From Priestia megaterium NBRC 15308 = ATCC 14581 (GTDB lineage Bacteria > Bacillota > Bacilli > Bacillales > Bacillaceae_H): DNA of 64,000 nt. The notes below the pieces were generated by a model. The model saw only the letters and a list, made by a program, of their open reading frames with translations. It searched no databases and had not been told where the DNA came from. The DNA is taken from contig NZ_CP009920.1 of NCBI RefSeq assembly GCF_000832985.1, positions 2,908,501-2,972,500 of the forward strand, in the 5' to 3' direction. Positions 16,043 through 63,601 of this stretch are shown piece after piece. The first letter of the stretch is position 1, and each line of letters starts with the position of its first letter. The position numbers and the translations under genes were made by a program.

Positions 16043-16359
16043 AAAAGAGAGGCCGAGACAAAAGTATTTTAGCTCAAATGAAAAACGAACCAGTGATCAA
16101 CATGTTTGATTAGTGGTTCGTTTTTTTTGTTATGGTGAACGTAGGTTTCATCTGTTTCGTTCCTTCTAGCAGTTGATTGGAGGGCAAGAGGAAGACTAAG
16201 GGGGAAAAGGGAAAGAGACGAGGAGGCTCATCGGCGGCCAGCGGAAAGCAAAGTCTTGCACAGTAATCAACTGCGGTGTCACAAGCGGTTCAGCTTATGT
16301 ATCCCATTTGTTCGCCTTTAGATTGGATTCATTTAGTTATGTCTTAACCTTTCTTTTAT
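16043..16359 (+). repeat. Interspersed terminator-bearing repeat, copy A
   Basis: Near full-length copy (about 315 bp). The ends are inverted: TAAAAGAGAGGccgAGACA on the left and TGTCTTAACCTTTCTTTTA on the right. The left third holds a terminator hairpin (16083-16128: AACGAACCA...TGGTTCGTT, then eight Ts). The middle holds a longer imperfect palindrome bounded by CAGTTGATT and AATCAACTG, with the GC-rich core partly decayed. It starts 3 bp after the ykhA stop and fills most of the 461-bp space before ppc. Confidence 0.85.
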
Positions 16360-16500
16360 ATTTGATGAATCTCCTCTCCTGAACGAGAGGAGGAAATAAA
16401 ATTATATGAAATTTATTTTCGTTCATGGTAATATGAATTTAATATAATTTTCTAAAAAGTTTAAAAAGTACAATATTTATGAAGAAAGGTGTCGTGTCTA

Positions 16501-19269
16501 ATGGTAACAGTAGAAGCAGCAGAAAGACAAAACAGCAGCACTGCCCTGCGCCGTGATGTTAAGTTTCTCGGTCAATTGTTAGGGAAAGTTCTGGTTCACC
16601 AAGGTGGAGAAGAACTGCTCAGCAAAGTAGAAAAAATACGCGAAGTAGCAAAATCACTTAGAGAAAACAAAGATGAAGTTATCTATAAAGAAATAAAAAA
16701 TGAAATCGTTACTCTTGAACAGCCGATGCGCGAGCAGGTTATTCGGGCGTTTGCAGTTTATTTTCATTTAGTTAATATTGCAGAGCAAAATCATCGAATT
16801 CGTCGCAGACGCGAATATCAGCAGCAAGAAGATTCTATTATGCAGCCGGGCTCATTGGAAAGTGCCGTTGTTTCGCTTAAAAATAATGGCGTGGCGCCAG
16901 ACGTAATTGCTAACTTGCTTCAAACTCTATCCCTAGAGCTCATCATCACTGCTCATCCAACAGAAGCCACTAGACGAAGTGTCCTTGATATTCATAAACG
17001 AATGGCTGAGCTTCTAAAAAACTTGGATAATCCAACGTTAACAAAACGTGAACGTACGGAAATTGAAGAAAGACTGTTTAGCGAAGTATTGATTTTATGG
17101 CAAACAAATGAACTGCGAGATCGCAAGCCGACGGTAATGGATGAAGTATCCAATGGATTATATTATTTTGATGAAACGTTATTTGAAGTGCTTCCTCAAC
17201 TTCATCAGGAGTTGGAAAATTCATTGCAGGAGAATTACCCCGAAGAAAATTGGAAGGTGCCTAATATTCTTCGATTTGGTTCATGGATTGGCGGAGACCG
17301 AGATGGAAATCCAAACGTAACTCCTAAAGTAACGTGGCAAACGCTTGTCAAACAAAGGAAGTTAGCTATTCGTAAATATAAAGAGTCACTTACTCAATTG
17401 AGACAAAGGTTAAGTCAGTCTACAAAAAGAGTCGCAGTTTCAGATAATCTTCTTGATTCTATTAATCAAGAAATATCGCTGCTGCCTGAGAAAAAGCGAT
17501 GGAGAATCAAACACGAAGTATATCGCTGCAAGCTTACGATTATGCTTCATAAATTAAATTTAGTTGGAGAATCGGAAGCAGGTTATCAAAGGTCGGAAGA
17601 ACTTCTACATGATTTATTTCTAATCAAAGATAGCCTGCAAAAGCACCAGCCTCAGGATTATCAGTTAAAAAGCTTATGTAAATTAATTCGCCAAGTTGAG
17701 CTGTTTGGTTTTCATTTAGCAACGCTTGATATCCGTAATCACAGCGGGGAACATGAAGCGGCAATCAAAGAAATTTTCCATGCTGTTTCTTTAGCTGAAG
17801 ATTATTCAGCGTTAACGGAAGAGAAAAAAGTCGAGCTGCTAGGGAAAGTTCTTCAAGACCCAAGACCTGTGATATCGTTTGTAGAGAATTACTCTAAAGA
17901 AACGCAGCAAGTAATTGAAGTATTTAACATGATACATCGAGCACATAAAGAATTTGGAGAAAGATCTATTGAAGTCTACTTAATCAGTATGACGCAGTCT
18001 GCAAGTGACTTGTTAGAAGTCATGGTACTCGCCAAAGAAGCGGGTATTTACCGCCTTCATGCAGATGGCCGCATTGAAAGTAAGTTAAATATAGCTCCGC
18101 TGCTTGAAACGATTGATGATCTCACAGCGGGTCCTAAAATCATGGAACAGCTATTTCAATTAGATTTTTATCGTGAGCACTTAAGGAAACAGCAGGATTT
18201 GCAGGAAATTATGCTTGGCTACTCAGATGGAAGCAAAGATGGAGGAACGCTTACTGCTAATTGGAAGCTCTACAAAGCGCAGCAGGAAATTCATGATATG
18301 GCGAAGAAGTATCAAGTTCGTCTGAAGTTTTTCCATGGTCGAGGCGGCTCACTAGGTCGAGGCGGTGGTCCGTTAAACCGAAGCATTTTATCTCAGCCTG
18401 TTGAGACGCTAGGAGACGGTGTGAAAATTACAGAGCAAGGAGAAGTTCTTTCTTCTAGATACGCTTTATATGACATTGCTTACCGAAGCCTTGAACAAGC
18501 GGTCTCAGCTCTTCTTACAGCGGCAGCAAATGTTTCTCAAGAAGCTGAACAATGTGATATTCGTACACATGAATGGGAAGAAACAATGGACGAGATTTCA
18601 ACTGCTTCTTTACGTAAGTATCAAGAGCTTGTTTTCAAAGATCCAGACTTTTTAACGTATTTTAAACAAGCTACACCTCTTCCTGAGCTGGGGGCTTTAA
18701 ATATTGGGTCACGTCCAATGAGTCGAAAAGGAAGTGATCGCTTTGAAGACTTGCGAGCCATTCCGTGGGTATTTGCATGGACTCAAAGCAGACAGCTGCT
18801 TCCAGCCTGGTACGCTGCAGGTACGGGCTTACAGCATTTAGTAGAGAAATCCGGAGATATACAGCTTCTTCAGCAAATGTATAAAGAATGGCCATTCTTC
18901 CGCTCGACCGTCGATAATCTGCAAATGGCCTTAACAAAAGCAGATTTAATGGCAGCAAAAGAATACACGGAAATGGTACAAGACCCGGCTATTTCAGAGC
19001 GGATTTTTACCGCCATTAAAAAAGAATATAATCTCACAAAAGAAATGATTCTTCAAATCACAGGTCAAAAAGAATTAATGGATCATCTTCCTACGATTAA
19101 AGAATCTATTAAATTACGAAATCCGTATGTGGACCCTCTAACATTCTTACAAGTTAAGGTCATTTCCAAGCTGCGTGAAGATGAGGCTGGAACGTTAAAT
19201 GAAGAACTTTTAAAAGAAGCGTTATTAACGATTAACGGCATTGCAGCAGGGTTGCGTAACACAGGCTGA
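16501..19269 (+). CDS. ppc: Phosphoenolpyruvate carboxylase
   Basis: A 922-residue PEPC that carboxylates PEP to oxaloacetate, refilling the TCA cycle. The catalytic blocks are all present: AHPTEATRR with His152, GSWIGGDRDGNP, LATLDIRNHS, the glycine loop FHGRGGSLGRGGGP with His612, and the C-terminal RNTG that closes the active site. ATG 16501 is 10 nt after GAAAGGTG; an in-frame GTG at 16489 overlaps that site. B. subtilis relies on pyruvate carboxylase and has no ppc, so this is a lineage marker. It is a single-gene unit with its own terminator. Confidence 0.97.
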   Translation: MVTVEAAERQNSSTALRRDVKFLGQLLGKVLVHQGGEELLSKVEKIREVAKSLRENKDEVIYKEIKNEIVTLEQPMREQVIRAFAVYFHLVNIAEQNHRIRRRREYQQQEDSIMQPGSLESAVVSLKNNGVAPDVIANLLQTLSLELIITAHPTEATRRSVLDIHKRMAELLKNLDNPTLTKRERTEIEERLFSEVLILWQTNELRDRKPTVMDEVSNGLYYFDETLFEVLPQLHQELENSLQENYPEENWKVPNILRFGSWIGGDRDGNPNVTPKVTWQTLVKQRKLAIRKYKESLTQLRQRLSQSTKRVAVSDNLLDSINQEISLLPEKKRWRIKHEVYRCKLTIMLHKLNLVGESEAGYQRSEELLHDLFLIKDSLQKHQPQDYQLKSLCKLIRQVELFGFHLATLDIRNHSGEHEAAIKEIFHAVSLAEDYSALTEEKKVELLGKVLQDPRPVISFVENYSKETQQVIEVFNMIHRAHKEFGERSIEVYLISMTQSASDLLEVMVLAKEAGIYRLHADGRIESKLNIAPLLETIDDLTAGPKIMEQLFQLDFYREHLRKQQDLQEIMLGYSDGSKDGGTLTANWKLYKAQQEIHDMAKKYQVRLKFFHGRGGSLGRGGGPLNRSILSQPVETLGDGVKITEQGEVLSSRYALYDIAYRSLEQAVSALLTAAANVSQEAEQCDIRTHEWEETMDEISTASLRKYQELVFKDPDFLTYFKQATPLPELGALNIGSRPMSRKGSDRFEDLRAIPWVFAWTQSRQLLPAWYAAGTGLQHLVEKSGDIQLLQQMYKEWPFFRSTVDNLQMALTKADLMAAKEYTEMVQDPAISERIFTAIKKEYNLTKEMILQITGQKELMDHLPTIKESIKLRNPYVDPLTFLQVKVISKLREDEAGTLNEELLKEALLTINGIAAGLRNTG

Positions 19270-19276
19270 TGATATC

Positions 19277-19316
19277 AAAAGACACCTCAAGAAAATAAAA
19301 GAGGTGTCTTTTGTTT
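19277..19316 (+). terminator. Terminator of ppc
   Basis: AAAAGACACCTC pairs with GAGGTGTCTTTT across a 12-nt loop, then TTGTTTATT. Confidence 0.82.
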
Positions 19317-19486
19317 ATTCTTCTCACATAAAGAACTGTCTGTCAGTTCCCTCTCTTTTAAAGAGAACTTCCGCCTGCGAAATAGGCATTGAGAAAAATC
19401 AATGATAGAATAGAGAAAGGATGGAAATATTCTACAAATGGGTGCGAGTGACGGGATAACTAGATTGAATATGGAGGACGAGGACA

Positions 19487-19930
19487 ATGGTAAAAAATTC
19501 GCAAATCTTCATTGAAGATGACTCCGAGAATTCTATATTTATTGGACTGGAATTTTGTGAGTATACACAAAAGATGAATCCTACTTGTTTGTCCAAACAG
19601 CATATAAATGTGTTTATTCATCCAGAAGAACTCACCGTGGAATTTAAGAAAACAAAAAGTGATAGAACTATCGACGATTTTCATCTCATGCATATCGTTC
19701 CGGTTCATTGCTTTAATTATTTATTATGTTCGATTTCGCAAGGTATTGTTACAGATGTTCAGCTGAAAGCGGTTGGTCATCAGGGAGAAACGTTGTTTGA
19801 AGAAAGTCTTACATTGAAGTTTCATGAAAAAGCGACGGATTATGAAGAAACCCTCTCATTTTTCAAGCATTTAAATCAAGAAATACAAAAGCAGACGAAA
19901 AAATATACAGCCAGTTATATGAGCTCATAA
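19487..19930 (+). CDS. Hypothetical protein, 147 residues
   Basis: I do not recognise this protein. It is soluble, with mixed beta and alpha content, no membrane segment, and a lysine-rich C-terminus. Cysteines are at about residues 24, 34, 76 and 82, with no clear metal-binding spacing. The ATG is 10 nt after GGAGGACGAGG, a strong ribosome site. The gene lies between two good terminators, so it is its own unit. Coding use looks like that of its neighbours, so I regard it as real. Confidence 0.65.
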   Translation: MVKNSQIFIEDDSENSIFIGLEFCEYTQKMNPTCLSKQHINVFIHPEELTVEFKKTKSDRTIDDFHLMHIVPVHCFNYLLCSISQGIVTDVQLKAVGHQGETLFEESLTLKFHEKATDYEETLSFFKHLNQEIQKQTKKYTASYMSS

Positions 19931-19936
19931 TAAAGC

Positions 19937-19968
19937 AAGCTGCGGTTTTTAAAACCGCAGCTTTTATT
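19937..19968 (+). terminator. Terminator of the 147-residue protein gene
   Basis: AAGCTGCGGTTTT pairs with AAAACCGCAGCTT, then TTATT. Confidence 0.85.
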
Positions 19969-19969
19969 C

Positions 19970-20226
19970 GTTTAACCGAAAAAATTATGTTAGAGATGCT
20001 TACAAATCAAGAGATTTTTCAGTGGGAAATTGATAAAGTAAAACTAAGAGAAATCAGTGGACAGAAAAGCTTTTAGCGGCTGGCCGCTCTTTATTCAATA
20101 TATAAGGGTTAGGTTTTAAGGTTAAAAAATAGCGATGAATACGTATGGTCATTGTAGATGAAGTGCTAAGGTCGCTCTATCTGCAATCATGTAGAATCTT
20201 CGCGCGCTTATAGTCTGTTTTACGGA
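19970..20226. other. Non-coding interval with a perfect hairpin, ahead of an orphan terminator
   Basis: No convincing gene. A perfect palindrome AGCGGCTGGCCGCT (about 20074-20087) is followed by CTTTATT and looks like a weak terminator. Between it and the stronger hairpin at 20233-20280 lie about 145 bp with no frame worth calling. A short frame of about 29 codons from 19987 has no ribosome site. A small RNA is possible but not shown. Confidence 0.4.
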
Positions 20227-20232
20227 ACGAAA

Positions 20233-20280
20233 AAGCTGCGGAATTAGAAGCACTCCTTCTATTTCTGCGGTTTTTTTTAT
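20233..20280 (+). terminator. Orphan terminator-like hairpin upstream of the Rieske gene
   Basis: GCTGCGGAATTAGAAG pairs with CTTCTATTTCTGCGG with wobble pairs and one mismatch around a 5-nt loop, followed by eight Ts. No gene ends just before it. Its 5' arm repeats the AGCTGCGG of the terminator at 19937. Confidence 0.6.
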
Positions 20281-20321
20281 AAACAAGAAATAAATTTACT
20301 TATTGTACGGAGGCGATGCAG

Positions 20322-21329
20322 ATGATTAAAGATTTAGTATTGGCTAAGGAATGGCTGCCTGCAGCTTATTCACATGATTTAACAGATCAGCCCTTGCAAG
20401 TAACGATTTTAGAAGAGCGAGTTGTACTTTTTCGCACAACTAATGCTATTAAAGCATTTAAGGATTTGTGCATCCACCGCGGTGCAGCGTTATCTCTTGG
20501 AAAAGTGGTAGATGATTGCATTGTATGCCCTTATCACGGATGGAAATACGATGATGCCGGGGCTTGTGTGAAAATTCCTCAACAGCCGCCGGGAAGAGCT
20601 ATTCCTTCAAAAGCAAAAGCACAGGTGTATGACTGCGTTGAAAAGTACGGGATTATATGGGTGAAGATGAACAGCGAGGCAGGTGATACTCCTCTTCCCC
20701 TGTATGATGAACATCTTAACTCCGGATTCAAAACGGTTTGCGCCAGCCCTCATACTCTGCAGGCAGCAGCTCCTCGTGTCGTAGAAAACTTTCTAGATGT
20801 AAGCCATTTGGCTTTTGTTCACGAAGGAAGCCTGGGGCACTCTGACTACGCCGAAATTCCTGATTATAAGGTGCATTGGAAAGATAACCGATACGTTTCT
20901 GATGAAATCGCTGTGTACGCAGATGCAGATGGCACGGGTAACTTTACGACTATTTATTACACCTTTGAAATTCTTCGTCCTACCGTTGCAAGGTTGAAAA
21001 AAGTGAACCACGAAACGGGTGAAATCTTTTCAATGCTGTTTGCGGTTTTACCTGAAGAGGAAAGAAAGTCCACCGTGTTTGCGCTGGTTTCTAGAAACTA
21101 TTCGTTTGATGCACCTGATCAATATTTCCGCGATTTTCAGCAGCTTATTATTGAACAAGATACCAGTATTGTGGAAAGTCAAAAACCAGAAGAGCTGCCG
21201 CTTGACTTACAAGCAGAGCTTCATTTGAATCCGGACCGACTGAGTATTGCGTATAGAAGATGGCTCGGCGATTTAGGAGTAACCTTTGGAAGTGATATAG
21301 GATCAAGGTTAAAAAAAGCTGCTCAATAA
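20322..21329 (+). CDS. Rieske [2Fe-2S] aromatic-ring-hydroxylating-type oxygenase
   Basis: A 335-residue single-chain Rieske oxygenase of the VanA/phenylpropionate dioxygenase-like group. The Rieske site is Cys50-x-His52 and Cys69-x2-His72 (CIHRGA and CPYHGW). The mononuclear iron site begins with ENFLDVSHLAFVHEG (His162, His167). Such enzymes oxidise or demethylate small ring compounds or amines using electrons from a separate reductase. No ferredoxin or reductase gene is next to it, so the partner must be elsewhere. The start is ATG 20322, 8 nt after GGAGG; ATG 20316 is too close to that site. Confidence 0.85.
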   Translation: MIKDLVLAKEWLPAAYSHDLTDQPLQVTILEERVVLFRTTNAIKAFKDLCIHRGAALSLGKVVDDCIVCPYHGWKYDDAGACVKIPQQPPGRAIPSKAKAQVYDCVEKYGIIWVKMNSEAGDTPLPLYDEHLNSGFKTVCASPHTLQAAAPRVVENFLDVSHLAFVHEGSLGHSDYAEIPDYKVHWKDNRYVSDEIAVYADADGTGNFTTIYYTFEILRPTVARLKKVNHETGEIFSMLFAVLPEEERKSTVFALVSRNYSFDAPDQYFRDFQQLIIEQDTSIVESQKPEELPLDLQAELHLNPDRLSIAYRRWLGDLGVTFGSDIGSRLKKAAQ

Positions 21330-21331
21330 AA

Positions 21332-32265: not shown

Positions 32266-32298
32266 TTGTTCATATCAATTGAATACAGCTAAGATTAC

Positions 32299-32370
32299 GA
32301 TCTTGTATATTATCAGTAATATGGTCTGATAGTCTCTACCTAGTAACCGTAAAAAACTAGACTACAAGAA
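32299..32370 (+). ncRNA. Guanine-class purine riboswitch (G-box)
   Basis: The purine aptamer is clear: P1 TCTTGTA/TACAAGA (32301-32307 with 32363-32369), the conserved TAATATGG before the P2 loop, TCTCTACC at J2/3, the ACCGTAAA loop and GACTAC at J3/1. The specificity base after GA is C, which predicts guanine (or hypoxanthine) rather than adenine. Ligand binding should stabilise P1 and turn the downstream gene off. A strong terminator lies about 60 nt further on. Confidence 0.93.
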
Positions 32371-32427
32371 AGTTTGGATATAAGCAGCAAAAAGAAGAGC
32401 GTATTCTCATGAGTACAGTCTTCTTTC

Positions 32428-36921: not shown

Positions 36922-38275
36922 GCTGGAGAAATGGGATAAAGAATATGTATGGCATCCGTTTACACAAATGAAAGCTTATCGTCAATCCAACCCTCTTATT
37001 ATTGAAAGAGGAGAAGGAAGCTATTTATATGATGTAGAGGGAAACAAATATTTAGATGGATACGCTTCTCTATGGGTGAACGTGCATGGACATAATGATC
37101 CGGAATTAAATACAGCTTTACATATACAAGTGGAAAGATTAGCGCATTCTACGCTGCTTGGATCGGCAAACGTTCCATCCATTTTGTTAGCCAAAAAGCT
37201 AGCGGAAATTACTCCTGGCAGCTTATCGAAAGTCTTCTACTCTGATACAGGCTCCGCCGCTGTTGAAATTGCGTTGAAAATTGCCTATCAATATTGGCAA
37301 AATCTCGACTCTGTAAAGTACAAAAACAAAAGTAAATTTATCTCATTGAATGAGGCATATCACGGAGATACAATCGGGGCAGTCAGTGTAGGAGGCATGG
37401 ATTTATTTCATCGCATCTTTAAGCCATTGCTGTTTGAACGAATTCCCGCACCTTCTCCTTATACTTACCGTATGGAAGGATTTGAAACGGAAGAGCAAGC
37501 TTCAGCTTACTGTATTCACCAGCTAGAGAAGCTCTTGCAGAACAAAGGGGAAGAAGTAGCCGGGTTGATTATTGAACCGCTTGTGCAAGGAGCAGCGGGT
37601 ATTATTACCCATCCTCCCGGTTTTTTAAAACAAGTAGAGCTGCTGTGCAAAGCGTACGGGGTATTGCTGATTTGTGACGAAGTAGCAGTTGGATTTGGAC
37701 GAACAGGAACGCTGTTTGCATGTGAACAAGAAGATGTTGTACCGGATATTATGTGTGTAGGAAAAGGGATAACAGGAGGATATATGCCGCTTGCTGCTAC
37801 GTTAACAAGCGAAAAGATATTTAATGCTTTTTTAGCTCATCCGGATGAAAATAAAACGTTCTTCCATGGCCATACGTATACGGGAAATCAATTAGCCTGT
37901 GCAGTAGCGCTTAAAAATATTGAACTGATAGAAGAAAGAGAATTAATCCGTAGTGTAAAAGAAAAGGAAAAAGTTTTTAAACGCTATCTATTAAAGCTTT
38001 ATGAACTGCCTAATGTGGGAGACATTAGACAACGAGGTTTAATGGCAGGAATCGAGATTGTGAAAGACCGTCAAACAAAATCGATTTTTGGAGATAAAAA
38101 AGTGATGGGAGACATTATTTTAGCCGCTCGCCAAAAAGGTTTAATTATTAGAGAGCTAGGTCCTGTGATTACGATGATGCCTATTCTTTCAATGACAAAC
38201 GAAGAATTAAAAACAATGGTTGAAATTGTATATGAATCAATTAAAGAAGTAATCGCACGTCATACAGTGAGTTAA
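36902..38275 (+). CDS. bioA: Adenosylmethionine-8-amino-7-oxononanoate aminotransferase
   Basis: A 457-residue class III aminotransferase that makes 7,8-diaminopelargonic acid. N-terminal WHPFTQMKAY is the BioA signature. DTGSAAVEIALKIAYQYW binds PLP phosphate, LICDEVAVGFGRTG holds the PLP aspartate, and VGKGITGGYMPLAAT holds the PLP lysine. Start is GTG 36902, 7 nt after AGGAGGTG, inside the end of bioD. BioF and BioB genes are not in this operon. The stop is followed within 10 nt by a short copy of the repeat. Confidence 0.95.
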   Translation: MPYQKAELEKWDKEYVWHPFTQMKAYRQSNPLIIERGEGSYLYDVEGNKYLDGYASLWVNVHGHNDPELNTALHIQVERLAHSTLLGSANVPSILLAKKLAEITPGSLSKVFYSDTGSAAVEIALKIAYQYWQNLDSVKYKNKSKFISLNEAYHGDTIGAVSVGGMDLFHRIFKPLLFERIPAPSPYTYRMEGFETEEQASAYCIHQLEKLLQNKGEEVAGLIIEPLVQGAAGIITHPPGFLKQVELLCKAYGVLLICDEVAVGFGRTGTLFACEQEDVVPDIMCVGKGITGGYMPLAATLTSEKIFNAFLAHPDENKTFFHGHTYTGNQLACAVALKNIELIEERELIRSVKEKEKVFKRYLLKLYELPNVGDIRQRGLMAGIEIVKDRQTKSIFGDKKVMGDIILAARQKGLIIRELGPVITMMPILSMTNEELKTMVEIVYESIKEVIARHTVS

Positions 38276-38281
38276 ATAACA

Positions 38282-38432
38282 AGAGGATAGGACAAAAGTT
38301 TTTTATTTAGTTGAAAAAAGATCCGAACGATGAAGCGTTCGGATCTTTTTATGGTTATGGTAACGTGAATGTACTCTATTTAGCTGCTTCTAGCGGTTGA
38401 TTGGTGTAGTTATCTCTCAATCTCTTCTTTTT
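38282..38432 (+). repeat. Interspersed repeat, copy F (short derivative)
   Basis: About 150 bp. The left end AAGAGGATAGGACAAAAG, the hairpin (GATCCGAACG...CGTTCGGATC at 38324-38348, then TTTTTA), the TTAGCTGCTTCTAGCGGTTGATTGG block and a right end TCTCTCAATCTCTT remain. The GC-rich central palindrome is missing. It begins 7 bp after the bioA stop and would act as the terminator of the bio operon. Confidence 0.75.
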
Positions 38433-38436
38433 TTTA

Positions 38437-38619
38437 TCAATAAATATTTTTAATACTTGATAGGCGAAGTGATCGTACATGCTGATTTTCATCTTTTAAT
38501 AGAAGAGTTTGTTCGAGTAAGTTTAAGTTTTGAATATAACCTTTTACCGTTTGAACAAAACCGTTGTTTTGATAGTTAATAGTTAATAATTTATTTGTTT
38601 TTAGCGCTTTTAAAATCAT
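38437..38619 (-). CDS. YolD-like small protein, paralogue 1 (60 residues)
   Basis: A 60-residue protein starting MILKALKTNK and ending LRLSSIKNIY. It resembles the C-terminal small-barrel part of YolD-like proteins, without their N-terminal region. Two paralogues lie at 49694 and 52275 with the same length, the same start and the same ending (I-K-x-I-Y). The ATG follows AGAAAGGAGAA. This copy is the most divergent of the three (QNNGFVQTVKGYIQNL against YENGLLQTFKGKIQNL). Function unknown. Confidence 0.75.
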   Translation of the reverse strand: MILKALKTNKLLTINYQNNGFVQTVKGYIQNLNLLEQTLLLKDENQHVRSLRLSSIKNIY

Positions 38620-38995
38620 ACCTATTTTCTCCTTTCTTATATCGTAGCTGACGAAAAACTACAAAATAACGAAGAAGCATTGGAGGCTTGTATTATTTAT
38701 AAAAATCACTCTATTTTTTATAAATGCTCTCCTGCTACTAATAGTAGAGAGCGATGGTGAAAAATAGATGAAAGATAAAGGATAAGGTTTGATTTATTGT
38801 AATGAACTGACTTTTCCTTTACAAATACCTATTTCAAATTTCTTTTTAGTGATAAAATACTGTTAGTGAAATAACTACTTCTTTTCATTAAAGGGTAAGA
38901 ACGGGTTATATTGATAGAGTTTTAGTTCTCTATTTCTAGTAATGAAATAAGAGATAGAGAAATAGACTAATAAAAATCAATCAAGGAGTTTTTTT
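38620..38995. other. Divergent intergenic region, YolD-like gene / TerC-family gene
   Basis: Non-coding, about 375 bp. A hairpin TCTCTAT...ATAGAGA is at about 38926-38960, 30-70 bp before the TerC start. I searched for the yybP-ykoY manganese riboswitch that precedes some TerC-family genes and did not see its conserved GC-rich blocks. Confidence 0.4.
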
Positions 38996-39661
38996 ATGGA
39001 TCAGAGTTTTATTTTAAATCTTTTAGAAATTTTACTGATTAACATTGTACTGAGTGGCGATAACGCAGTCGTGATTGCTTTAGCTTGTCGGAATCTTCCG
39101 GACGAGCATCGAAACAAAGCGGTTGTTTTCGGTACATTAGGAGCGGTTGTATTACGTGTAGGGCTAACGTTTGTCGCTGTCTATTTATTAACAATTCCAT
39201 TTTTAAATTTCATCGGAGGCCTGCTTCTTCTATGGATTGCGATTAGTCTTTTAAAAGGTGAAGATGACGGAGATATTAAAGCGAATTCAACTCTAGCAGG
39301 TGCTATTAAAACAATTATTATAGCGGATCTTGTTATGAGTTTAGATAACGTAGTAGCGGTTGCGGGTGCGGCTAACGGCAGTATTCTACTCATTATCCTT
39401 GGTCTTGTTATCAGCATTCCGTTAATCATTTGGGGAAGTCAGCTTTTAATGAAAATTATGGAAAAATTCCCAATTATCATCATTGCTGGAGCAGCGCTTC
39501 TTGGCTATACTGCTGGTGAAATGATCTTTAAAGACAAAGCGGTGGGACACGTATTAGAAGGGTTAAATCCGCATTTGCATACGATTATTCCTATTTTGTT
39601 AGCTATTTTAGTTGTTGTTGTTGGGAAACTTAGCGGACGTTCTAAAAAAGAAACGCATTAA
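38996..39661 (+). CDS. TerC-family integral membrane protein (YjbE-type)
   Basis: A 221-residue protein with about seven helices. The TerC signatures are LSGDNAVVIALACRNL near residue 20 and DLVMSLDNVVAVAGAA near residue 107, each with a conserved aspartate in a helix. Family members are linked to export of manganese or other metals and to loading of secreted enzymes. The length and the YjbE-like N-terminus suggest the YjbE group. The ATG follows AAGGAG. The stop is followed after 8 bp by repeat copy B. Confidence 0.85.
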   Translation: MDQSFILNLLEILLINIVLSGDNAVVIALACRNLPDEHRNKAVVFGTLGAVVLRVGLTFVAVYLLTIPFLNFIGGLLLLWIAISLLKGEDDGDIKANSTLAGAIKTIIIADLVMSLDNVVAVAGAANGSILLIILGLVISIPLIIWGSQLLMKIMEKFPIIIIAGAALLGYTAGEMIFKDKAVGHVLEGLNPHLHTIIPILLAILVVVVGKLSGRSKKETH

Positions 39662-39668
39662 TCCTAAA

Positions 39669-40007
39669 AAAGAGGTTGGGACAAAAGTATTTAAGATGAA
39701 GTGAAAAACGAACCACTAATCAAACATTTTGATTAGTGATTCGTTTTTTTGTTGGGATGAACGTAGGCTTCATTTGTTTAGATCCATCTAGCAGTTGATT
39801 GGAGGACAAGGCGAAGACTCCTGCGGGAAAAGCGGAACAGATGAGACCCCGCAGGAGCGTACGCGACGAGGAGGCTCATCGGCCGCCCGCGGAAAGCGAA
39901 GTCTTGTACGGAAATCAACTGCGGTGTCATAAGCGGTTCAGCTCATGTATCCCATTTATTCGTCTTTAGATTGAATTCATCTGGCTATGTCTCAACCTCT
40001 TTTTTTA
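39669..40007 (+). repeat. Interspersed terminator-bearing repeat, copy B (most complete)
   Basis: About 335 bp. Ends AAAGAGGTTGGGACA and TGTCTCAACCTCTTT are near-perfect inverted repeats. The left part has the hairpin AACGAACCACTAATCAAA/TTTTGATTAGTGATTCGTT (39706-39746) followed by Ts. The centre is a nested palindrome from CAGTTGATT to AATCAACTG, with ACTCCTGCGGG/CCCCGCAGGAG and GATGAG/CTCATC stems inside. It fills the space between the convergent terC-like gene and dctP exactly. Confidence 0.88.
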
Positions 40008-41276
40008 TTACTTAGCTAATGGAGGTGCGGAATTAACGTCTTGTACTGTTTCTACAGGAGGATGAAATTCATTTTCCATTTTCGATACAACTACAGTTGC
40101 TACACCATTTCCAATTAAGTTTGTAATGGCACGAGCTTCCGACATAAAGCGGTCTACCCCAATTAACAGCGCGATTCCTTCAACTGGAATCATCGGGAAT
40201 GCAGCAAGCGTAGCTGCTAGTGTAATAAATCCAGAGCCAGTAACTCCGGCAGCTCCTTTAGACGTTAACATTAAAATACCAAGTAGCGTAATCTCTTGCA
40301 TTAACGACAGGTCGACTCCATACGCTTGAGCGATAAAGATAGCAGCCATTGATAAGTAGATTGCTGTTCCATCTAGGTTAAATGAGTAACCAGTTGGAAT
40401 GACAAGTCCTACTACAGATTTTGAACATCCGTACTTCTCCATTTTGTCCATCATTTTTGGCAGTGCAGATTCCGAAGAAGACGTACCTAATACAAGTAGA
40501 ATTTCTTCTTTAATAAAAGCAATGAATTTAAAAATATTAAATCCATAAATCTTAGCAATGGTTCCAAGTACAAATACAATAAATAAGAACATAGTAATGT
40601 AAACAGATCCCATTAAGAAACCGAGTTTTTGAAGAGAGCCTATTCCAAAGTTACCGATCGTATAAGCCATCGCTCCAAACGCGGCAATAGGTGAAAGTTT
40701 CATAATCATATTAACAATTCCAAAGAAAATATCTGTACAGCGTTCAAAGAATGTAATGACAGGAGCCGCTTTTTCGCCGAGTGTAGCTGTAGCCATTCCA
40801 AATAGTACGGCAAAGAATAAGATTGGCAATAATTCACCATTTGCCATTGCGCCAAATACGCTGTCTGGAATAATTCCCATGATAAACTCCATAAAGCCAT
40901 GCTCCGCTTCAGCTGCTTGCTGCGTATATTGAGTAACATCAGCTCCGCTTGCGCCATTGATATTAAAGCCAGCCCCAGGTTTGATAAAGTTTACAACGAT
41001 AATTCCAATTGCTAAGGCAAAAGTAGTGACAATCTCAAAGTATAAAAGAGCTTTACCTCCAATTCGTCCCACTTTCTTTAAATCTCCCATGCTTCCGATA
41101 CCGATGACCACTGTTAAGAAAATAATTGGGGCAATCACCATCTTAATTAATTTAATGAAGATATCAGCCAATACTTTTAATTTAGCTCCAAATTCAGGAA
41201 ACATGAAGCCAATTGCAATACCAAGAAGGATACCGATAACAACTTGAACAGTTAGATTTTTAAAACTTAATTTCAT
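40008..41276 (-). CDS. dctP: C4-dicarboxylate/glutamate:cation symporter DctP
   Basis: A 422-residue DAACS carrier. The hallmark [15 protein letters not shown] hairpin and the unwound-helix block NLDGTAIY are present, with [15 protein letters not shown] near the C-terminus. It imports succinate, fumarate and malate with protons or sodium. The length matches B. subtilis DctP (about 421), and the neighbours are the DctB/DctS/DctR homologues, which supports C4-dicarboxylates over glutamate. A tandem repeat and a cre site lie upstream. The start ATG follows CGAAAGGAG. Confidence 0.92.
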
Positions 41277-49654: not shown

Positions 49655-49693
49655 AAAAAAAGATCCTAGAAGAGTTCTTCAGGATCTTTTTTG
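49655..49693. terminator. Terminator of YolD-like gene 2
   Basis: AAAAAAAGATCCT pairs with AGGATCTTTTTTG around a 13-nt partly paired loop. Confidence 0.8.
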
Positions 49694-49876
49694 TTAATAA
49701 ATTTCTTTAATGCCAGACAAACGAATGGAAAAAATGTTTTGTTTTTCATCTCGTAGGGAGAGGGTTTGGTCGGTTAGGTTTAAATTTTGGATTTTTCCTT
49801 TGAAGGTTTGAAGCAGGCCATTTTCGTAATAATTCACGGTTACATGTTTGTTTTTCTTTAACGCTTTTAAAATCAT
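49694..49876 (-). CDS. YolD-like small protein, paralogue 2 (60 residues)
   Basis: A 60-residue protein, MILKALKKNK at the start and RLSGIKEIY at the end. It is very close to paralogue 3 (52275-52457), with the shared blocks GLLQTFKGK, LTDQTLSL and FSIRLSGIKEIY. Start ATG 49876 follows AAAGGAGATG; a start 6 codons upstream lies in that ribosome site. The sequence resembles the C-terminal part of YolD-like proteins. It is a single-gene unit with its own terminator. Function unknown. Confidence 0.78.
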   Translation of the reverse strand: MILKALKKNKHVTVNYYENGLLQTFKGKIQNLNLTDQTLSLRDEKQNIFSIRLSGIKEIY

Positions 49877-52259: not shown

Positions 52260-52274
52260 ACTGTAAACTATTCA

Positions 52275-52457
52275 TCAATAAATTTCTTTAATTCCCGATA
52301 AACGAATAGAGAAAGTATTTTGCTGTTCATCTTTTAATGAAAGCGTTTGGTCTGTTAAATCTAAGCGCTGTACTTTTCCTTTAAACGTTTGAAGCAAACC
52401 GTTTTTATAATAGTTAATTGTAACGGCCCCGTTTTTTCTTAATGCTTTTAAAATCAT
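52275..52457 (-). CDS. YolD-like small protein, paralogue 3 (60 residues)
   Basis: A 60-residue protein, MILKALRKNG at the start and RLSGIKEIY at the end, the closest relative of paralogue 2 across ltaS. The middle differs most in KVQRLDL against KIQNLNL. ATG 52457 follows GGAAGGAG. It is convergent with ltaS and shares its terminator. Function unknown; the conserved basic N-terminus followed by a small beta barrel would suit binding to nucleic acid or protein, but this is a guess. Confidence 0.78.
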   Translation of the reverse strand: MILKALRKNGAVTINYYKNGLLQTFKGKVQRLDLTDQTLSLKDEQQNTFSIRLSGIKEIY

Positions 52458-55754: not shown

Positions 55755-55762
55755 CGGATTAA

Positions 55763-55990
55763 ACAAAGAGAATGTGAGAAAAGTTGTTTCGCTAGCGTTA
55801 AACACGAACGATCTATCAAAAATAGATCGTTCGTGTTTTTTTATGGTCATGGTGAACGTAGGTTTCGTGTGGGCAGGTCCTTCTAGCTGTTGCACGGAAA
55901 TCAACAAAGGTGTCATAAGCAGTTCAGCTCATTTATCCCCATTTTACGTCTTTAGATTCATTTTATTATGTTCCAATCTTTTTTTCTTGT
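55763..55990 (+). repeat. Interspersed repeat, copy C (centre deleted)
   Basis: About 230 bp. The left end AAAGAGAATGTGAGAAAAG is diverged. The hairpin AACACGAACGATCTAT/ATAGATCGTTCGTGTT (55801-55836) is perfect and ends in TTTTTTT. After GGTGAACGTAGGTTTC the sequence jumps from TTCTAGCTGTTG to CACGGAAATCAAC, so the GC-rich palindrome is missing. It continues with the normal right arm to TCCAATCTTTTTTT. It starts 8 bp after the mmuM stop. Confidence 0.75.
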
Positions 55991-56675: not shown

Positions 56676-56676
56676 C

Positions 56677-56998
56677 AAAAAGAAGCGGAAACAAAAGTAG
56701 TTTAGTTGAAGGAAGATCCGAACGATGAATCGAGATTCTTGATAGAGAATCTCGATTCATCGTTCGGATTTTTTATTGTGATGGTGAACGTAGATTGTAT
56801 ATATTTGCTTCTAGCTGTTGATTAGAGGGCAAGGCGAAGACTCTGTCGGGGAAAGTGGAGTGGCTGAGACCCCGCAGAAGGGTAAGTGAAGTTTTGCACG
56901 AAAATCAACAGCGGCGTACCACGCAGTCCAAATCATTTATCCCATTTGTTCGTATTTAGATTGGCTTGATTTCGTTATGCCTCAATCTCTTTTTTTAC
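56677..56998 (+). repeat. Interspersed terminator-bearing repeat, copy D
   Basis: About 320 bp. It starts at the stop codon of the FAH gene with AAAAAGAAGCGGAAACAAAAG and ends GCCTCAATCTCTTTTTTT. Its hairpin is the longest of the set: about 24 bp of perfect pairing (56715-56768; ATCCGAACGATGAATCGAGA is the 5' part) around TGAT, then TTTTTTA. The central palindrome (GTTGATT...AATCAAC) is present but its GC core has substitutions and a gap. Confidence 0.85.
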
Positions 56999-58483: not shown

Positions 58484-58498
58484 ATGAAAGCGGATTCA
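58484..58498 (+). promoter_or_regulatory. CcpA (cre) site upstream of citM
   Basis: ATGAAAGCGGATTCA matches the cre consensus WTGNAARCGNWWWCA at every position. It is 18 bp before the citM start, suggesting a transcription roadblock by CcpA. B. subtilis citM is also under CcpA control. Confidence 0.82.
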
Positions 58499-58516
58499 AA
58501 AATAGGAGGGGTAATA

Positions 58517-59821
58517 ATGTTAGCTATTCTTGGGTTTTTGATGGTTTGTACATTTATGTTTCTAATTATGACAAAACGATTAACGCCGCTTATTGCTTTA
58601 ATGGTTATTCCAGTATTGTTTGCAATCATAGGGGGATTCACAAGTGATATTGGAGAAATGGCTTTAAATGGTGTAAAAGAATTAGCACCTACAGGCGTTA
58701 TGTTAATGTTTGCTATTTTATATTTTGGGATTATGATTGATGCTGGTTTGTTTGATCCAGTTGTAGGAAGAATTTTAAAAATCGTAAAAGGTGATCCACT
58801 AAAAATCACAATTGGTACAGCTATTTTAGTTCTTATTATCTCATTAGACGGAGACGGAACAACAACATATATGATTACGCTCTCAGCGATGCTTCCGCTT
58901 TATAAAAAGCTAAACATGAAGCCTATGATTTTAGCCTGTATCGCTATTATGGGTAGTGGAGTTATGAACTTAACGCCTTGGGGCGGACCTACTGCTCGCG
59001 TGATGAGCGCATTGAAGTTAGATGCTTCCCAGGTGTTCACACCAATGATTCCAGCCATGATTGGTGGAGCTATTTGGTTATTATTTACGGCTTACTATTT
59101 CGGGAAAAAAGAGCGCCAGCGCTTAGGTGTTATTGATATTCAAGACGTTACAAATGCTCAAGTAGCTTTTGCAGAAGCAGCCGCTGCTGAAGGAATCGAG
59201 TACAAGCGTCCGAAGCTTTTATGGGTAAACTTTGCTTTAACAGCTCTCTTATTAGTAGGACTTATCACAGCAGTTATGCCGCTTCAAATTCTGTTTATGA
59301 TTGGATTTGCAATCGCTATCATGATTAACTATCCAAATTTAGAAGTTCAAAAAGAGCGTATCACAGCACATGCTGGTAATGTACTTGCTGTTGTATCTCT
59401 TGTATTCGCAGCAGGCGTATTCACAGGCATTTTATCAGGTACAAAAATGGTAGATGCAATGGGTAACAGTTTAGTAGGATTAATTCCAGATGCGCTAGGG
59501 CCTTACATGTCTGTGATTACAGCCATCACAAGTATGCCATTTACGTTCTTTATGTCAAATGATGCTTACTACTATGGAATTTTACCAATTATTGCTCAAG
59601 CAGCTTCAGCATACGGTATTGATGCTGCAGAAATTGGCCGTGCTTCATTGATTGGTCAACCTGTTCACTTACTAAGTCCTTTAGTTGCTTCTACGTATCT
59701 ATTGGTCGGTATGGCAAAAGTCGAGCTTGGTGAATTCCAGCGCTTTACTTTAAAGTGGACGATTGGAACAGCGATGGTGATGCTTTTAGTAGCTATTATT
59801 ACAGGAGTTATTACGCTGTAA
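58517..59821 (+). CDS. citM: Metal-citrate transporter, CitMHS family
   Basis: A 434-residue carrier with about twelve helices, close to B. subtilis CitM (433). LDGDGTTTYMITLSAMLPLY and LTPWGGPTARVMSAL are family blocks near the middle; FFMSNDAYYYGILPI is in the C-terminal half. It imports citrate complexed with magnesium or similar divalent ions, in symport with protons. ATG 58517 is 5 nt after AGGAGGGG; the frame is open further upstream through the cre site but lacks another site. A terminator follows, then citS-citT-yflP. Confidence 0.92.
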   Translation: MLAILGFLMVCTFMFLIMTKRLTPLIALMVIPVLFAIIGGFTSDIGEMALNGVKELAPTGVMLMFAILYFGIMIDAGLFDPVVGRILKIVKGDPLKITIGTAILVLIISLDGDGTTTYMITLSAMLPLYKKLNMKPMILACIAIMGSGVMNLTPWGGPTARVMSALKLDASQVFTPMIPAMIGGAIWLLFTAYYFGKKERQRLGVIDIQDVTNAQVAFAEAAAAEGIEYKRPKLLWVNFALTALLLVGLITAVMPLQILFMIGFAIAIMINYPNLEVQKERITAHAGNVLAVVSLVFAAGVFTGILSGTKMVDAMGNSLVGLIPDALGPYMSVITAITSMPFTFFMSNDAYYYGILPIIAQAASAYGIDAAEIGRASLIGQPVHLLSPLVASTYLLVGMAKVELGEFQRFTLKWTIGTAMVMLLVAIITGVITL

Positions 59822-59834
59822 AGATCATGAACTT

Positions 59835-59877
59835 AAAAACTTATCAATTCCGCTTTTGGGATTGATAAGTTTTTTTG
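59835..59877 (+). terminator. Terminator of citM
   Basis: AAAACTTATCAATTCC pairs with GGGATTGATAAGTTTT around GCTTTT, then TTTG. Confidence 0.87.
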
Positions 59878-59974
59878 TCTAAAAAGCTTTTGGAATAAGG
59901 AGCGGATATACAAAAAATTTTGATAAAATAAAAGAGGAATAGAACTATAAGGTAAAGGCTAAAGGTGCGATGAA

Positions 59975-61564
59975 ATGAAAAAATGGTTTCAAGTATCGCT
60001 GCAAACAAAAATCGTAGGTTTATCCGCAGCATTAATCATAACTGTTATTGTTCTTTTAGCGAGTATTTTCTCTTACATGCAGTTTGTAGAATCTAAAAGG
60101 CAAGCCGAGCAGCTGGCTCTTCAAGCAGCCAAATCAATATCATTTATGCCGGAAGTCAAAGCTGCTTTTCAAAAAAAACAGCCCAGTCGCTATATTCAGC
60201 CCCTTGCCGAGCAAGTGAGGGAACAAATCGGAGCAGCAAGTATTGTAGTTCAAAACCGTGAGCAAATCATCTATTCTCATGCTAATCAAAAATGGATAGG
60301 AAAGAAAGACAAAGAGGCGGTTAACGATAGAGCACTATTATTCGGCGGATATTATACGCTTGACGGAGAGGGAACCACAGGTCCTGCAATTATGGGGAAA
60401 GCGCCTATTGTCATCAGTCACGGAAAGTATACGGACGTCGTGGGAGTAGTGACGGTTGAGTTTTTAAAGTCTCATGTTCATGCTCAGCTCATTGCGCGCA
60501 TTCAGCAAATTATCCTATTTTCACTAGCTGTTCTATTGCTTGGTATGATCGGGGGTATTTTTTTAGCTAAAAGTATTAAAAAAGATACTCTCGGTCTTGA
60601 GCCCCATGAAATCGCTTCTTTATACCGTGAACGAAATGCGATTTTACTTTCGATAAAAGAAGGAATTATTGCTATTGATCATCAAGGCTTTATTACGATG
60701 ATGAATACATCAGCTAAAAATATGCTAGGACTACAGACGGAATATTTACATCATCATATCATTGAAGTATTTCCTTATACGAATATGATTGAAGTGCTAG
60801 ATACGGGAATAGCCCGAAGCGACCAAGAGATTTTTCTGAATGAAAAAACGTTTATCTTAAACTTAACTCCTATTATTGAACATCAGCGAATTGTAGGAGT
60901 GGTCGCTAGTTTTCGTGATAAGACAGAATTAAAAAGCTTAATCAATACGATTTCAGAAGTACGAAAGTATTCAGAGGATTTACGAGCTCAAACGCATGAG
61001 TTTACGAATAAGCTGTATGTTTTGTCGGGTTTGCTGCAGTTAGGGCAGTACAAAGATGCATTTGAGTTTATTCAAAAAGAATCAGCCGTACACCAAACAC
61101 AAAACCGTATTCTATTTGATCAGATACTAGATTCTAAAGTCCAAGCAATATTGCTTGGGAAGATTGGAAAAGCATCTGAAAAGAAAATTCACTTTTCGGT
61201 TGATTCGGAGAGTACACTCGATACGCTCCCAGAACATATTGAAATTTCTCATCTCATTATCATTATTGGGAATTTAATTGATAATGCATTTGAAGCGGTG
61301 AGTCAGCAGTCTGAAAAAGAAGTGTCGTTTTTTATTACCGATATTGGTCATGATTTAATTATTGAAGTGATGGATAATGGACCTGGTGTATCAGAAGAAG
61401 TACTAAATCAAATTTTCACAAAAGGTTTTTCAACCAAAGGTACAGACAGAGGATACGGACTGGCAAATATAAAGAAAATGGTAGATGAGCTTGGAGGATC
61501 TATTGAAGTGTATAATCAGCCAGAAGGAGGAGCTATTTTTTCAGTTTACCTTCCAAAAAACTGA
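59975..61564 (+). CDS. citS: Citrate sensor histidine kinase CitS
   Basis: A 529-residue CitA/DcuS-type kinase. Helices at about 15-37 and 175-196 frame an external PAS-like domain. Then come a cytoplasmic PAS (about 220-310), the phosphorylation helix with His in RAQTHEFTNKLYVLSGLLQLG (split at about 60990-61050), and an ATPase (NLIDNAFEAV, DNGPGVS, GYGLANIKKMV). It is the paralogue of DctS in this window. ATG follows AAAGGTGCGATGAA. citT follows after 27 bp. Confidence 0.92.
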   Translation: MKKWFQVSLQTKIVGLSAALIITVIVLLASIFSYMQFVESKRQAEQLALQAAKSISFMPEVKAAFQKKQPSRYIQPLAEQVREQIGAASIVVQNREQIIYSHANQKWIGKKDKEAVNDRALLFGGYYTLDGEGTTGPAIMGKAPIVISHGKYTDVVGVVTVEFLKSHVHAQLIARIQQIILFSLAVLLLGMIGGIFLAKSIKKDTLGLEPHEIASLYRERNAILLSIKEGIIAIDHQGFITMMNTSAKNMLGLQTEYLHHHIIEVFPYTNMIEVLDTGIARSDQEIFLNEKTFILNLTPIIEHQRIVGVVASFRDKTELKSLINTISEVRKYSEDLRAQTHEFTNKLYVLSGLLQLGQYKDAFEFIQKESAVHQTQNRILFDQILDSKVQAILLGKIGKASEKKIHFSVDSESTLDTLPEHIEISHLIIIIGNLIDNAFEAVSQQSEKEVSFFITDIGHDLIIEVMDNGPGVSEEVLNQIFTKGFSTKGTDRGYGLANIKKMVDELGGSIEVYNQPEGGAIFSVYLPKN

Positions 61565-61591
61565 ATCATGAGAAGTAAGGGGAGAGTTGAA

Positions 61592-62263
61592 ATGTTAAGA
61601 GTCGCAATTGCAGAAGACGATTTTCGAATTGCTCAAGTTCAAGAGCGATTTTTATTAGAAGTAGATGGTGTGGAAGTTGTAGGTAAAGCGTTGAATGCAA
61701 AAGAGACGCTTGAAATGCTAAAGGAGAAGAAAGTTGATTTACTTCTTTTAGACATCTATATGCCAGATGAAATGGGAACAGATTTACTGCCAAAAATCAG
61801 AGCGCGGTTTCCACACGTTGACGTTATAGTGGTAACGGCTGCCACCGAAAAAAACATTGTAGAAATCTGTTTGAGAAACGGCGTCGTTAATTATTTGATT
61901 AAGCCGGTTATGATGGAATCCTTCATTAATGCTATTAAACAGTATCAAGAGAAAAAGGAACTGTTTAGTACGCATGAAGAAGTAGATCAATCATTTATTG
62001 ATGCGTACTTTGGACATGTCAGGACAAAGCCAAAAGCGGATAAATCTCTTCCTTCAGGTATTGATGGTATCACATTACAAAAGTCAAAAGATATTTTAAA
62101 AAGCATCAAAGGAATTACGATCGAAGAGATGGGGCAGCACATGGGAGTATCTAGAACGACAGCTAGACGATATTTAGAGTATCTAGTATCAACTGGTGAA
62201 TGTCACGTTGAATATGATTATGGGATTATTGGACGGCCAGAGCGCAAGTACTATTTAGCGTAG
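61592..62263 (+). CDS. citT: Response regulator CitT
   Basis: A 223-residue CitB-family regulator. Receiver: AEDD at residues 8-11, phospho-acceptor in LLLLDIYMPDEMG, and Lys in YLIKPVMMESF. The C-terminal HTH has TIEEMGQHMGVSRTTARRYLEYL, written in parts TIEEMGQHMG and VSRTTARRYLEYL. In B. subtilis it activates citM in the presence of citrate. ATG 61592 follows GGGGAGAG; the frame extends 8 codons upstream into that site. yflP follows after 24 bp. Confidence 0.92.
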   Translation: MLRVAIAEDDFRIAQVQERFLLEVDGVEVVGKALNAKETLEMLKEKKVDLLLLDIYMPDEMGTDLLPKIRARFPHVDVIVVTAATEKNIVEICLRNGVVNYLIKPVMMESFINAIKQYQEKKELFSTHEEVDQSFIDAYFGHVRTKPKADKSLPSGIDGITLQKSKDILKSIKGITIEEMGQHMGVSRTTARRYLEYLVSTGECHVEYDYGIIGRPERKYYLA

Positions 62264-62287
62264 CATTAGCCTTGAAGGATGGTATAT

Positions 62288-63256
62288 ATGATCAAAAAGC
62301 TCATGATAGTGTTTATAAGTGTATTGCTTGTTAGCTGTTCTTCTCCCTCTAAAAAAGACCGTATTGATATGGGGGAAATTGAAATTGTGGCAGCCGGTGC
62401 AAAAGGCGGAGGAGCAGACGCAACAGTAAGAGCCATTCAACAAGTGCTAACGGAAAAGAAGATTGTGAAGGTACCCGTTTCTGTTAGTAATAAAATAGGT
62501 GGGCAAGGTGAAGAAGGATGGAAATATATTAAACAGAGAAAAGAAGGGAATATTGTTTCCGGAAATTCCAGCTTGCTGATTACAAATAATTTGCTAGGGC
62601 AAAGTCAATTAACATATAAAGACTTTACTCCGCTCGCTATTTTAACATCTGAATGGGAGGTCATCGTAGTTCCTGCTAACTCTCCTATATATAATTTAAA
62701 ACAGCTCATACGCACGTTAAATCAAAGTGAATCCAGCATGAAAGTGGGAATATCACCTCGCTTAGGAAACGACGATCATTTATCGTTCATGCAGCTAAAT
62801 AAAAAAGCAGGCGTAGACTCTTCCAAGCTTGAGTTCTTCGTTTACAACAGCAGTCATAAAGTGATCGATGCACTCGTTCATCATCAGCTAGATGTAGCAC
62901 CTATGTCATTATCAGAAGTGAAAAAGCAGTATGAACAAGGGCAGGTAAGAATACTCGCCGTTTCTTCTCCCAGCAGGCTAGAAGAGTTAAAAGAGATCCC
63001 AACGTGGAAAGAAGCGGGAATTGACGTAACGTTTAGCCATTGGAGAGGTCTAATGGGACCGCCTAATATGACCAAAGAGCAGGTAGCATATTGGAATAAG
63101 ACAGTGTATGAAATGGTTCATACAAAAGAATGGGAACAGCTGCTTAAAGATAACGATTTAACCTCTTTTTATAAAAATAGCAGCGGTGCTAAAGTCTTTC
63201 TTGAACAGCAAAGCAAGCTGTATTCTGACTTAATGGGCGGAACAAATGATGAATAA
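62288..63256 (+). CDS. yflP: Tripartite tricarboxylate carrier-type binding lipoprotein (YflP/TctC)
   Basis: A 322-residue extracytoplasmic binding protein. Residues 1-16 are a lipoprotein signal and Cys17 (LVSC) the lipidated residue. The Bug/TctC fold follows (VAAGAKGGGADATVRAIQQ, split over 62386-62442; SNKIGGQGEEGW). No tctA or tctB membrane genes are present. In B. subtilis yflP also lies beside citS-citT and citM. By analogy with DctB, it may present citrate or a related acid to CitS; this is inferred. ATG 62288 follows GAAGGATGG. Confidence 0.88.
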   Translation: MIKKLMIVFISVLLVSCSSPSKKDRIDMGEIEIVAAGAKGGGADATVRAIQQVLTEKKIVKVPVSVSNKIGGQGEEGWKYIKQRKEGNIVSGNSSLLITNNLLGQSQLTYKDFTPLAILTSEWEVIVVPANSPIYNLKQLIRTLNQSESSMKVGISPRLGNDDHLSFMQLNKKAGVDSSKLEFFVYNSSHKVIDALVHHQLDVAPMSLSEVKKQYEQGQVRILAVSSPSRLEELKEIPTWKEAGIDVTFSHWRGLMGPPNMTKEQVAYWNKTVYEMVHTKEWEQLLKDNDLTSFYKNSSGAKVFLEQQSKLYSDLMGGTNDE

Positions 63257-63264
63257 ATATAATA

Positions 63265-63601
63265 GAAAGAGGTTGGGATAAAAGGATTTTAGACGGAGTG
63301 AAAAACGAACCATTGATCAAGATTTTTGATTCGTGTTTCGTTTTTTTGTTTTGGTGAGCATAGTTTCATCTGTTCTGTTCCTTCTAGCAGTTGATTGGAG
63401 GGCAAGACGAAGACTCCTGCGGGAAAAGCGGAAGGGGTGAGACCCCACAGGAGAGTAAGCGACGAGGAGGCTCACCGGCCGCCCGCGGAAAGCGAAGTCT
63501 TGCACGGAAATCAACTGCGGAGTCAAAAGCAGTTCAGCTCATATATCTCATTTGTTCGTCTTTAGATTGAATTCATTTCGGTATGTCTTAACCTCTTTCT
63601 A
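63265..63601 (+). repeat. Interspersed terminator-bearing repeat, copy E
   Basis: About 335 bp, full length. Ends GAAAGAGGTTGGGATAAAA and TATGTCTTAACCTCTTTC are inverted repeats. The hairpin (63303-63342) has mismatches, ending in TTTTTTT. The central palindrome is intact (CAGTTGATT...AATCAACTG; ACTCCTGCGGG with CCCCACAGGAG). It begins 8 bp after the yflP stop and ends exactly at the stop of the convergent LysR gene. Confidence 0.87.

Follow-up and report, generated by a model that had tools for sequence, protein, structure and literature searches.

We analysed a 64,000-nt stretch of the Priestia megaterium chromosome (positions 2908501-2972500 of contig C6 in genome G000, which comprises 5.75 Mb in 7 contigs; hereafter, the window) and an interspersed repeat of about 335 bp that recurs in it directly behind genes. 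It is probable, in our judgment, that this repeat, referred to below as the element, is a miniature inverted-repeat transposable element (MITE) of the IS1182 type that replaces transcription terminators, carries a terminator of its own, and owes its orientation to selection. At the level of sequence, this explanation is suggested by terminator hairpins at element-free alleles, by ends shared with IS1182-family insertion sequences (ISs), by a conserved internal hairpin, and by an orientation that follows the upstream gene. According to the proposed mechanism, the non-autonomous element would insert into the hairpin of an intrinsic terminator and delete the hairpin core; the outer A/T arms of the former stem would stay behind as flanks, and the target would not be duplicated. 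The hairpin and T-run inside its left end would then restore termination a few tens of nucleotides past the stop codon, provided that the left end faces the gene. Between tandem genes, an insertion in the wrong direction would deprive the gene of a terminator close by and would presumably be lost, so that a one-orientation rule would result. Because the element would bring its own terminator along, its copies would be found directly behind genes and nearly always in the same direction. The movement itself would have been driven in trans by an IS1182-type transposase now absent from G000, and transcription would actually terminate at the built-in hairpin.

A first-pass annotation of the window had described six copies on one strand, each starting a few nucleotides past a plus-strand stop codon, and we confirmed both their presence and their placement. 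A full copy begins with the left end AAAAGAGGCTGGGACAAAAG and closes with its inverted complement as the right end. In between lie, from about 36 nt onward, a hairpin with a T-run, a TTCTAGC block, a GC-rich core flanked by GTTGATT and AATCAAC, and a tail. No copy in the window is longer than 337 bp or contains an open reading frame (ORF) of 90 amino acids or more. The order of parts, first described as the same in all six copies, held for four of them but not for the left half at 38282 or the core-less copy at 55763. The upstream genes of the six copies match, in order, 4HBT thioesterase, bioA, TerC/YjbE, homocysteine S-methyltransferase, FAA hydrolase, and a TctC-type binding protein. The copies, named hereafter by their first position in the window, and the related features are as follows:

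16043-16357, plus strand: copy with a shortened core behind the thioesterase gene; hairpin at 16086-16120, then eight T; empty allele in G002.
38282-38402, plus strand: left half behind bioA, stopping after the TTCTAGC block, without core or right end; hairpin at 38320-38345.
39669-40005, plus strand: full copy of 337 bp in the gap where a TerC-family gene and a dicarboxylate symporter gene converge; G008 and G002 have the empty allele.
39709-39743, plus strand: terminator-like hairpin of copy 39669, then seven T; its pairing was compared across copies.
39794-39919, plus strand: GC-rich core of copy 39669, bounded by GTTGATT and AATCAAC.
55763-55979, plus strand: core-less copy downstream of the homocysteine S-methyltransferase gene, with its hairpin at 55803-55835; empty allele in G002.
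56677-56989, plus strand: copy downstream of the FAA hydrolase gene, its core shortened; the hairpin at 56718-56767 is long; empty alleles in G002 and L131.
63265-63601, plus strand: full copy following the TctC-type gene, with a convergent gene on its other side; hairpin at 63306-63340; empty alleles in G002, L130 and L131; reversed in G008.
15380-15414, no strand assigned: empty target in G000, a terminator hairpin behind the gene at 14324-15379; its place is taken by the element in G007.

The mode of insertion could be read from element-free alleles of relatives. The related genomes compared (G002, G006, G007 and G008) are 97-98% identical to G000 in the TerC-family gene and 92-98% in the upstream flanks. 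Priestia aryabhattai B8W22 (L129) showed 95-96% identity in its two long matches to the same region; it and G006, probably one genome, were counted once. We located 32 sites of G000 in at least one relative and inspected 14, finding seven clean empty alleles, six shortened copies, and one copy both reversed and shortened. The clean empty alleles were those of copies 16043, 55763, 56677 and 63265 in G002, of copy 39669 in both G008 and G002, and of G000 positions 3153632 and 3419419 in G007. An eighth was found separately at window position 15386, where G007 carries the element and G000, G008 and G002 do not. The first-pass annotation had proposed comparing related strains for empty sites, and they were found, clean, at these eight places. 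In each of the eight alleles the stop codon is directly followed by a hairpin whose base carries A- and T-runs, and the empty-allele regions of 74-89 nt fold at -12 to -40 kcal/mol, in line with the earlier suggestion that the element is targeted to terminators. At the 39669 site, G002 reads TCCTAAAAAAGA + CCCCTGTAAGGGGG + TCTTTTTT, whereas G000 reads TCCTAAAAAAGA + element + TCTTTTTT; the hairpin core is lost, the outer arms are left, and nothing is duplicated. At all eight sites the element occupies the place of the hairpin without target duplication, as in the hairpin-replacing insertion of IS1272. More distant Priestia (L130 and L131, about 70% identity) also have element-free hairpins at 63265, and L131 has one at 56677. 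A hairpin is still visible at each of the seven inspected sites that were not empty. What these comparisons add to the first-pass annotation is that the terminator is replaced rather than adjoined; the kinship with IS1182 and the reversed copies in relatives at two convergent sites, described below, are likewise new.

The same alleles bear on two other accounts of how the copies came to their places. Old, immobile terminators passed on by vertical inheritance would agree with the many sites common to several relatives, but presence and absence vary, with clean junctions, among genomes with roughly 92-98% identity in the upstream flanks, and the empty alleles already contradict such inheritance, to which we give next to no weight. 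If the repeats spread through gene conversion or homologous recombination with one another, no transposase would be required, and none was found in G000, where hundreds of similar sequences could serve as templates. However, the empty sites share with the element only short A/T and G bases, and the element ends are those of a transposon family, making this route very improbable.

The placement rule extends beyond the window. A blastn search of G000 gave 54 matches from the best 40 of 158 candidates. A covariance model of the left end (R1), built from 27 blastn copies of this same genome, gave 150 matches from 150 scored; the genome-wide counts rest on these 150 listed left ends, and the true number is at least 150. 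The surroundings of all listed copies were taken and genes were called by codon score, with a threshold that was lowered after exceptions had been inspected. With the lowered threshold, the nearest upstream gene reads into the element at 144 copies and away from it at 5, and is uncalled at 1. Random intergenic positions and strands within the window were co-directional in 37.5% of cases and within 30 nt in 5.8%, so the placement is beyond chance, as had been claimed from the six copies. The distance from the stop codon to the GAGG of the element has a median of 7 nt and is at most 30 nt in 125 of the 150 copies. Between tandem genes, 99 copies lie forward and 3 reversed, while 45 copies lie in convergent gaps and 2 in divergent ones. 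Random orientation or position across the genome, the outcome that the first-pass annotation took as speaking against its rule, was looked for in the listed copies and not found. Replication as the cause of the orientation was rejected, since 26 of the 29 copies opposing the replication direction follow their gene (with the origin assumed at base 1 of contig C1 of the relative G007). Forty-one of the 150 listed left ends have no right end, and 15 right ends have no left end. This suggests that the hairpin-bearing half is kept preferentially, and it is a suggestion only, because the left- and right-end models differ in sensitivity.

The built-in hairpin recurs throughout these copies. A stable hairpin followed by T is present in 149 of the 150 (median -21.2 kcal/mol, 142 different sequences), compared with 31 of 150 shuffled copies passing the same criterion, the shuffle preserving base composition only. 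A stable hairpin with a T-run being the mark of an intrinsic terminator, a terminator is predicted in these 149 copies. In 27 aligned left ends, 95.1% of the 185 cells of the seven outer pairs show standard pairing, as opposed to 86.8% in shuffles, and the number of cells changed on both sides is 13 versus 3.3, a value that none of 500 shuffles matched. Such tests support, but do not prove, that the hairpin structure is maintained, because related copies inflate them. The earlier alternative of a module selected as a terminator also fits, as compensatory changes preserve the pairing of the terminator-like hairpin that the element carries. A different role, such as an RNA function of the GC-rich core or the stabilization of transcripts, could in principle maintain the element with termination being secondary. 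The core is well conserved across 26 aligned copies, and other Bacillaceae have similar cores that lack these ends; yet the core is absent or shortened in several copies while the hairpin persists in nearly all of them, and we find such a role quite improbable.

The ends of the element connect it to a transposon family. Both GAGGCTGGGACAAAA and TTATGTCCCAGCCTC recur in autonomous IS1182-family ISs. Thirty loci of other genomes that encode an IS1182-type transposase domain were compared; three of them (L211, L212 and L222) match at both ends, and an IS on a Cytobacillus plasmid (L234) has matching ends as well. These four ISs carry GAGGCTGGGACAAAA on the left and TATGTCCCAGCCTC on the right; the GAGGCTGGGACA ends are exact in L212, L222 and L234 and have one mismatch in L211. 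The L212 transposase was typed as IS1182 by NCBIfam NF033551, and L233-L235 are annotated as IS1182. The element is, as a MITE is by definition, short and without a transposase. Because its ends match those of autonomous IS1182-family ISs of other Bacillales, the element is most likely an IS1182-family MITE, and a missing autonomous partner is the one feature in which it falls short.

The comparison with autonomous ISs also bears on what sets the orientation. From 36 loci of autonomous copies in ten genomes, 29 copies were used (seven genomes, 16 copies from G112), seven loci having been set aside because they did not offer a complete pair of ends with sufficient flanking sequence. Automatic end detection in other IS1182 loci was unreliable, and the both-end hairpins it gave in 15 of 19 proposed elements were not relied on. 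All 29 copies have a strong hairpin inside both ends, as do L211, L233, L234 and L235, whereas the MITE retains the left hairpin only. Stop codons are abutted by the left end only in nine of the autonomous copies, by the right end only in nine, and by both ends in three. Between tandem genes, the autonomous ISs lie forward in seven cases and reversed in six. In several G112 copies an end adjoins an assembly gap, and two have a left flank in common; a second count without the doubtful flanks gave 6:5. The 99:3 of the MITE differs from both counts (Fisher p = 4e-5 and 2e-4, respectively). Because the two-hairpin ISs are unbiased and the one-hairpin MITE is strongly biased, selection for the single retained terminator is the likely cause of the orientation rule. 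The simplest reading would be that insertion is blind to orientation and that only the terminator-restoring direction survives. Between convergent genes, either orientation could serve one of the two genes.

Alternatively, the orientation could be fixed at insertion, through a polar hairpin target or a coupling to transcription, rather than by later selection. Wherever the rule applies to the eight insertions compared, it is already obeyed, and a MITE could use its two unequal ends differently from the ISs. However, autonomous ISs with the same ends are unbiased, IS1272 is reported in both orientations (PMC4923244), and the element is reversed in a relative at two convergent sites, namely 63265 in G008 and 3021150 in G007. 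We therefore think it unlikely that insertion alone sets the direction. At 63265, the reversed G008 copy shows 90.4% identity to its G000 counterpart and 92.4% to its G007 counterpart; the figures are 87.7% for the B8W22 copy, which lacks the core, and 87.7-89.3% for three copies located at other sites. Because of these identities to copies of the same site, inversion in place appears at least as likely as an independent insertion.

Several results weigh against a terminator-replacing MITE oriented by selection. Six of the 150 listed copies have no co-directional upstream gene by the gene calls used, and the stricter first calling gave 134 in the same direction, 4 opposite and 12 uncalled. One listed copy has no hairpin by the criteria used, and the number of pairs with a change on both sides is only 3 versus 1.5, a value reached by 37 of 500 shuffles. 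In eight of the 29 autonomous copies, neither end lies against a stop codon. The tandem IS cases are few, and without the dominant genome G112 they stand at 5:3 (p = 0.005). Finally, searches of G000 with Pfam PF13751, with a protein query, and with NF033551 all failed to reveal an IS1182 transposase. The IS1182-type transposase was likewise not found in G002, G006 and G007, and G008 gave one weak match inside a 1942-codon frame. MITEs often outlive their autonomous partners, and the absent partner for this reason only lowers the case for membership among IS1182 MITEs.

Other observations concern the distribution and the parts of the element. All 150 listed left ends are on chromosome contig C6 and none on the other contigs (7% of the genome), while plasmid NZ_CP069400.1 of another P. 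megaterium strain has 11 matching places. A hypothetical protein annotated over one of these copies (L239 1627-1899; NZ_CP069400.1 36050-36322) is probably a spurious gene. Four upstream frames end inside the element (G000 contig C6 3088868, 3173521, 3315891 and 3461262; L006, L012, L085 and L092), and their proteins gain element-encoded tails such as EAGTKVC and ETGTKLF. In G018, G042, G076 and G080, from other families of the order, the left-end model gave 33-40 weaker matches each among the best 40 candidates; related elements may be common in Bacillales. GC-rich cores similar to that of the element, without its ends, occur on plasmids of several Bacillaceae (including L236 740-1180 and L237 700-1200), and in L237 the core is inverted and adjoins an IS1182-family transposase. 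The core may be a separate module. Core-less copies have different break points, and precise excision of the core was therefore rejected.

In the window, two copies fill gaps between convergent genes by our gene calls (39669 and 63265), not three as first described; copy 38282 faces a repeated small minus-strand segment, but this copy is truncated. The repeated segment, found at 38433-38583, 49690-49840 and 52271-52421, reads as a minus-strand ORF of about 70 amino acids, presumably YolD-like, and one copy of it borders the truncated element. At the gathering score, Rfam gave for the whole window only a ZMP/ZTP riboswitch (12420-12498) and a purine riboswitch (32283-32384), both on the plus strand and neither at an element; at a permissive limit, it gave no credible family for the element in 38000-40200. 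Copy 39669 had no match in a phage collection.

Terminator targeting and hairpin replacement are already known for IS1182-family elements. IS1272, of the IS1182 family, is reported to insert into terminator stem-loops in both orientations, with a blunt deletion and no duplication (PMC4923244), through an inverted-repeat-replacing mechanism (PMC5678879). A large survey found IS1182 over-represented between convergent genes (PMC9208149), an excess that fits terminator targeting. IS1272 and TnSha1 of staphylococci resemble the element in their hairpin targets, stem-loop deletion, lack of target duplication, and location directly behind genes. They differ in bearing a transposase and in their two orientations, and the excerpts of their descriptions mention no terminators inside them (PMC4923244, PMC5678879), whereas the element has about 335 bp, no transposase, one hairpin, and an orientation rule. 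The autonomous IS1182-family ISs (L211, L212, L222, L234 and the G112 copies) share with it the terminal inverted repeats and the hairpin inside the left end, but have a transposase of about 530-570 amino acids, a second hairpin inside the right end, and an unbiased orientation (29 copies).

Among repeats, the nearest analogue by this comparison is SPRITE of Streptococcus pneumoniae, which is interspersed, terminator-like in structure, and enriched between convergent genes. In the available part of its description, SPRITE has only AAAA/TTTT as ends and an 18-bp duplex followed by a U-rich tract, with no comparable empty site or IS parent (PMC3049150); the element differs from it in its GAGGCTGGGACA-type ends and its length of about 335 bp. 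Prokaryotic MITEs are, like the element, non-autonomous with terminal inverted repeats. The accessible text of a MITE review calls terminators formed by MITEs 'conceivable', citing SPRITE, and names no terminator-replacing MITE that we could find (PMC10969869). Our searches of an open-licence literature collection likewise yielded, among the papers listed, no description of this element, of a terminator-replacing MITE, of built-in compensating terminators, or of a one-hairpin orientation rule. We lean, if only slightly, towards the wider view that IS1182-type transposons of Bacillales are, as a class, terminator-swapping parasites that repay the host a terminator from their own ends. On this wider view, the one-terminator derivative in Priestia would have become a standard part of the 3' end of about 150 genes, subject to compensatory evolution, with an orientation that records selection on termination. 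The terminator-replacing explanation itself would account for the positional rule by a testable mechanism, as hairpin-replacing transposition, known from IS1272, would do almost no harm when the incoming element supplies a terminator. If so, the contrast between two-hairpin ISs and the one-hairpin element would make orientation a natural readout of the need of cells for terminators, and the many natural terminator swaps between close strains could be used to measure the cost of transcriptional readthrough.

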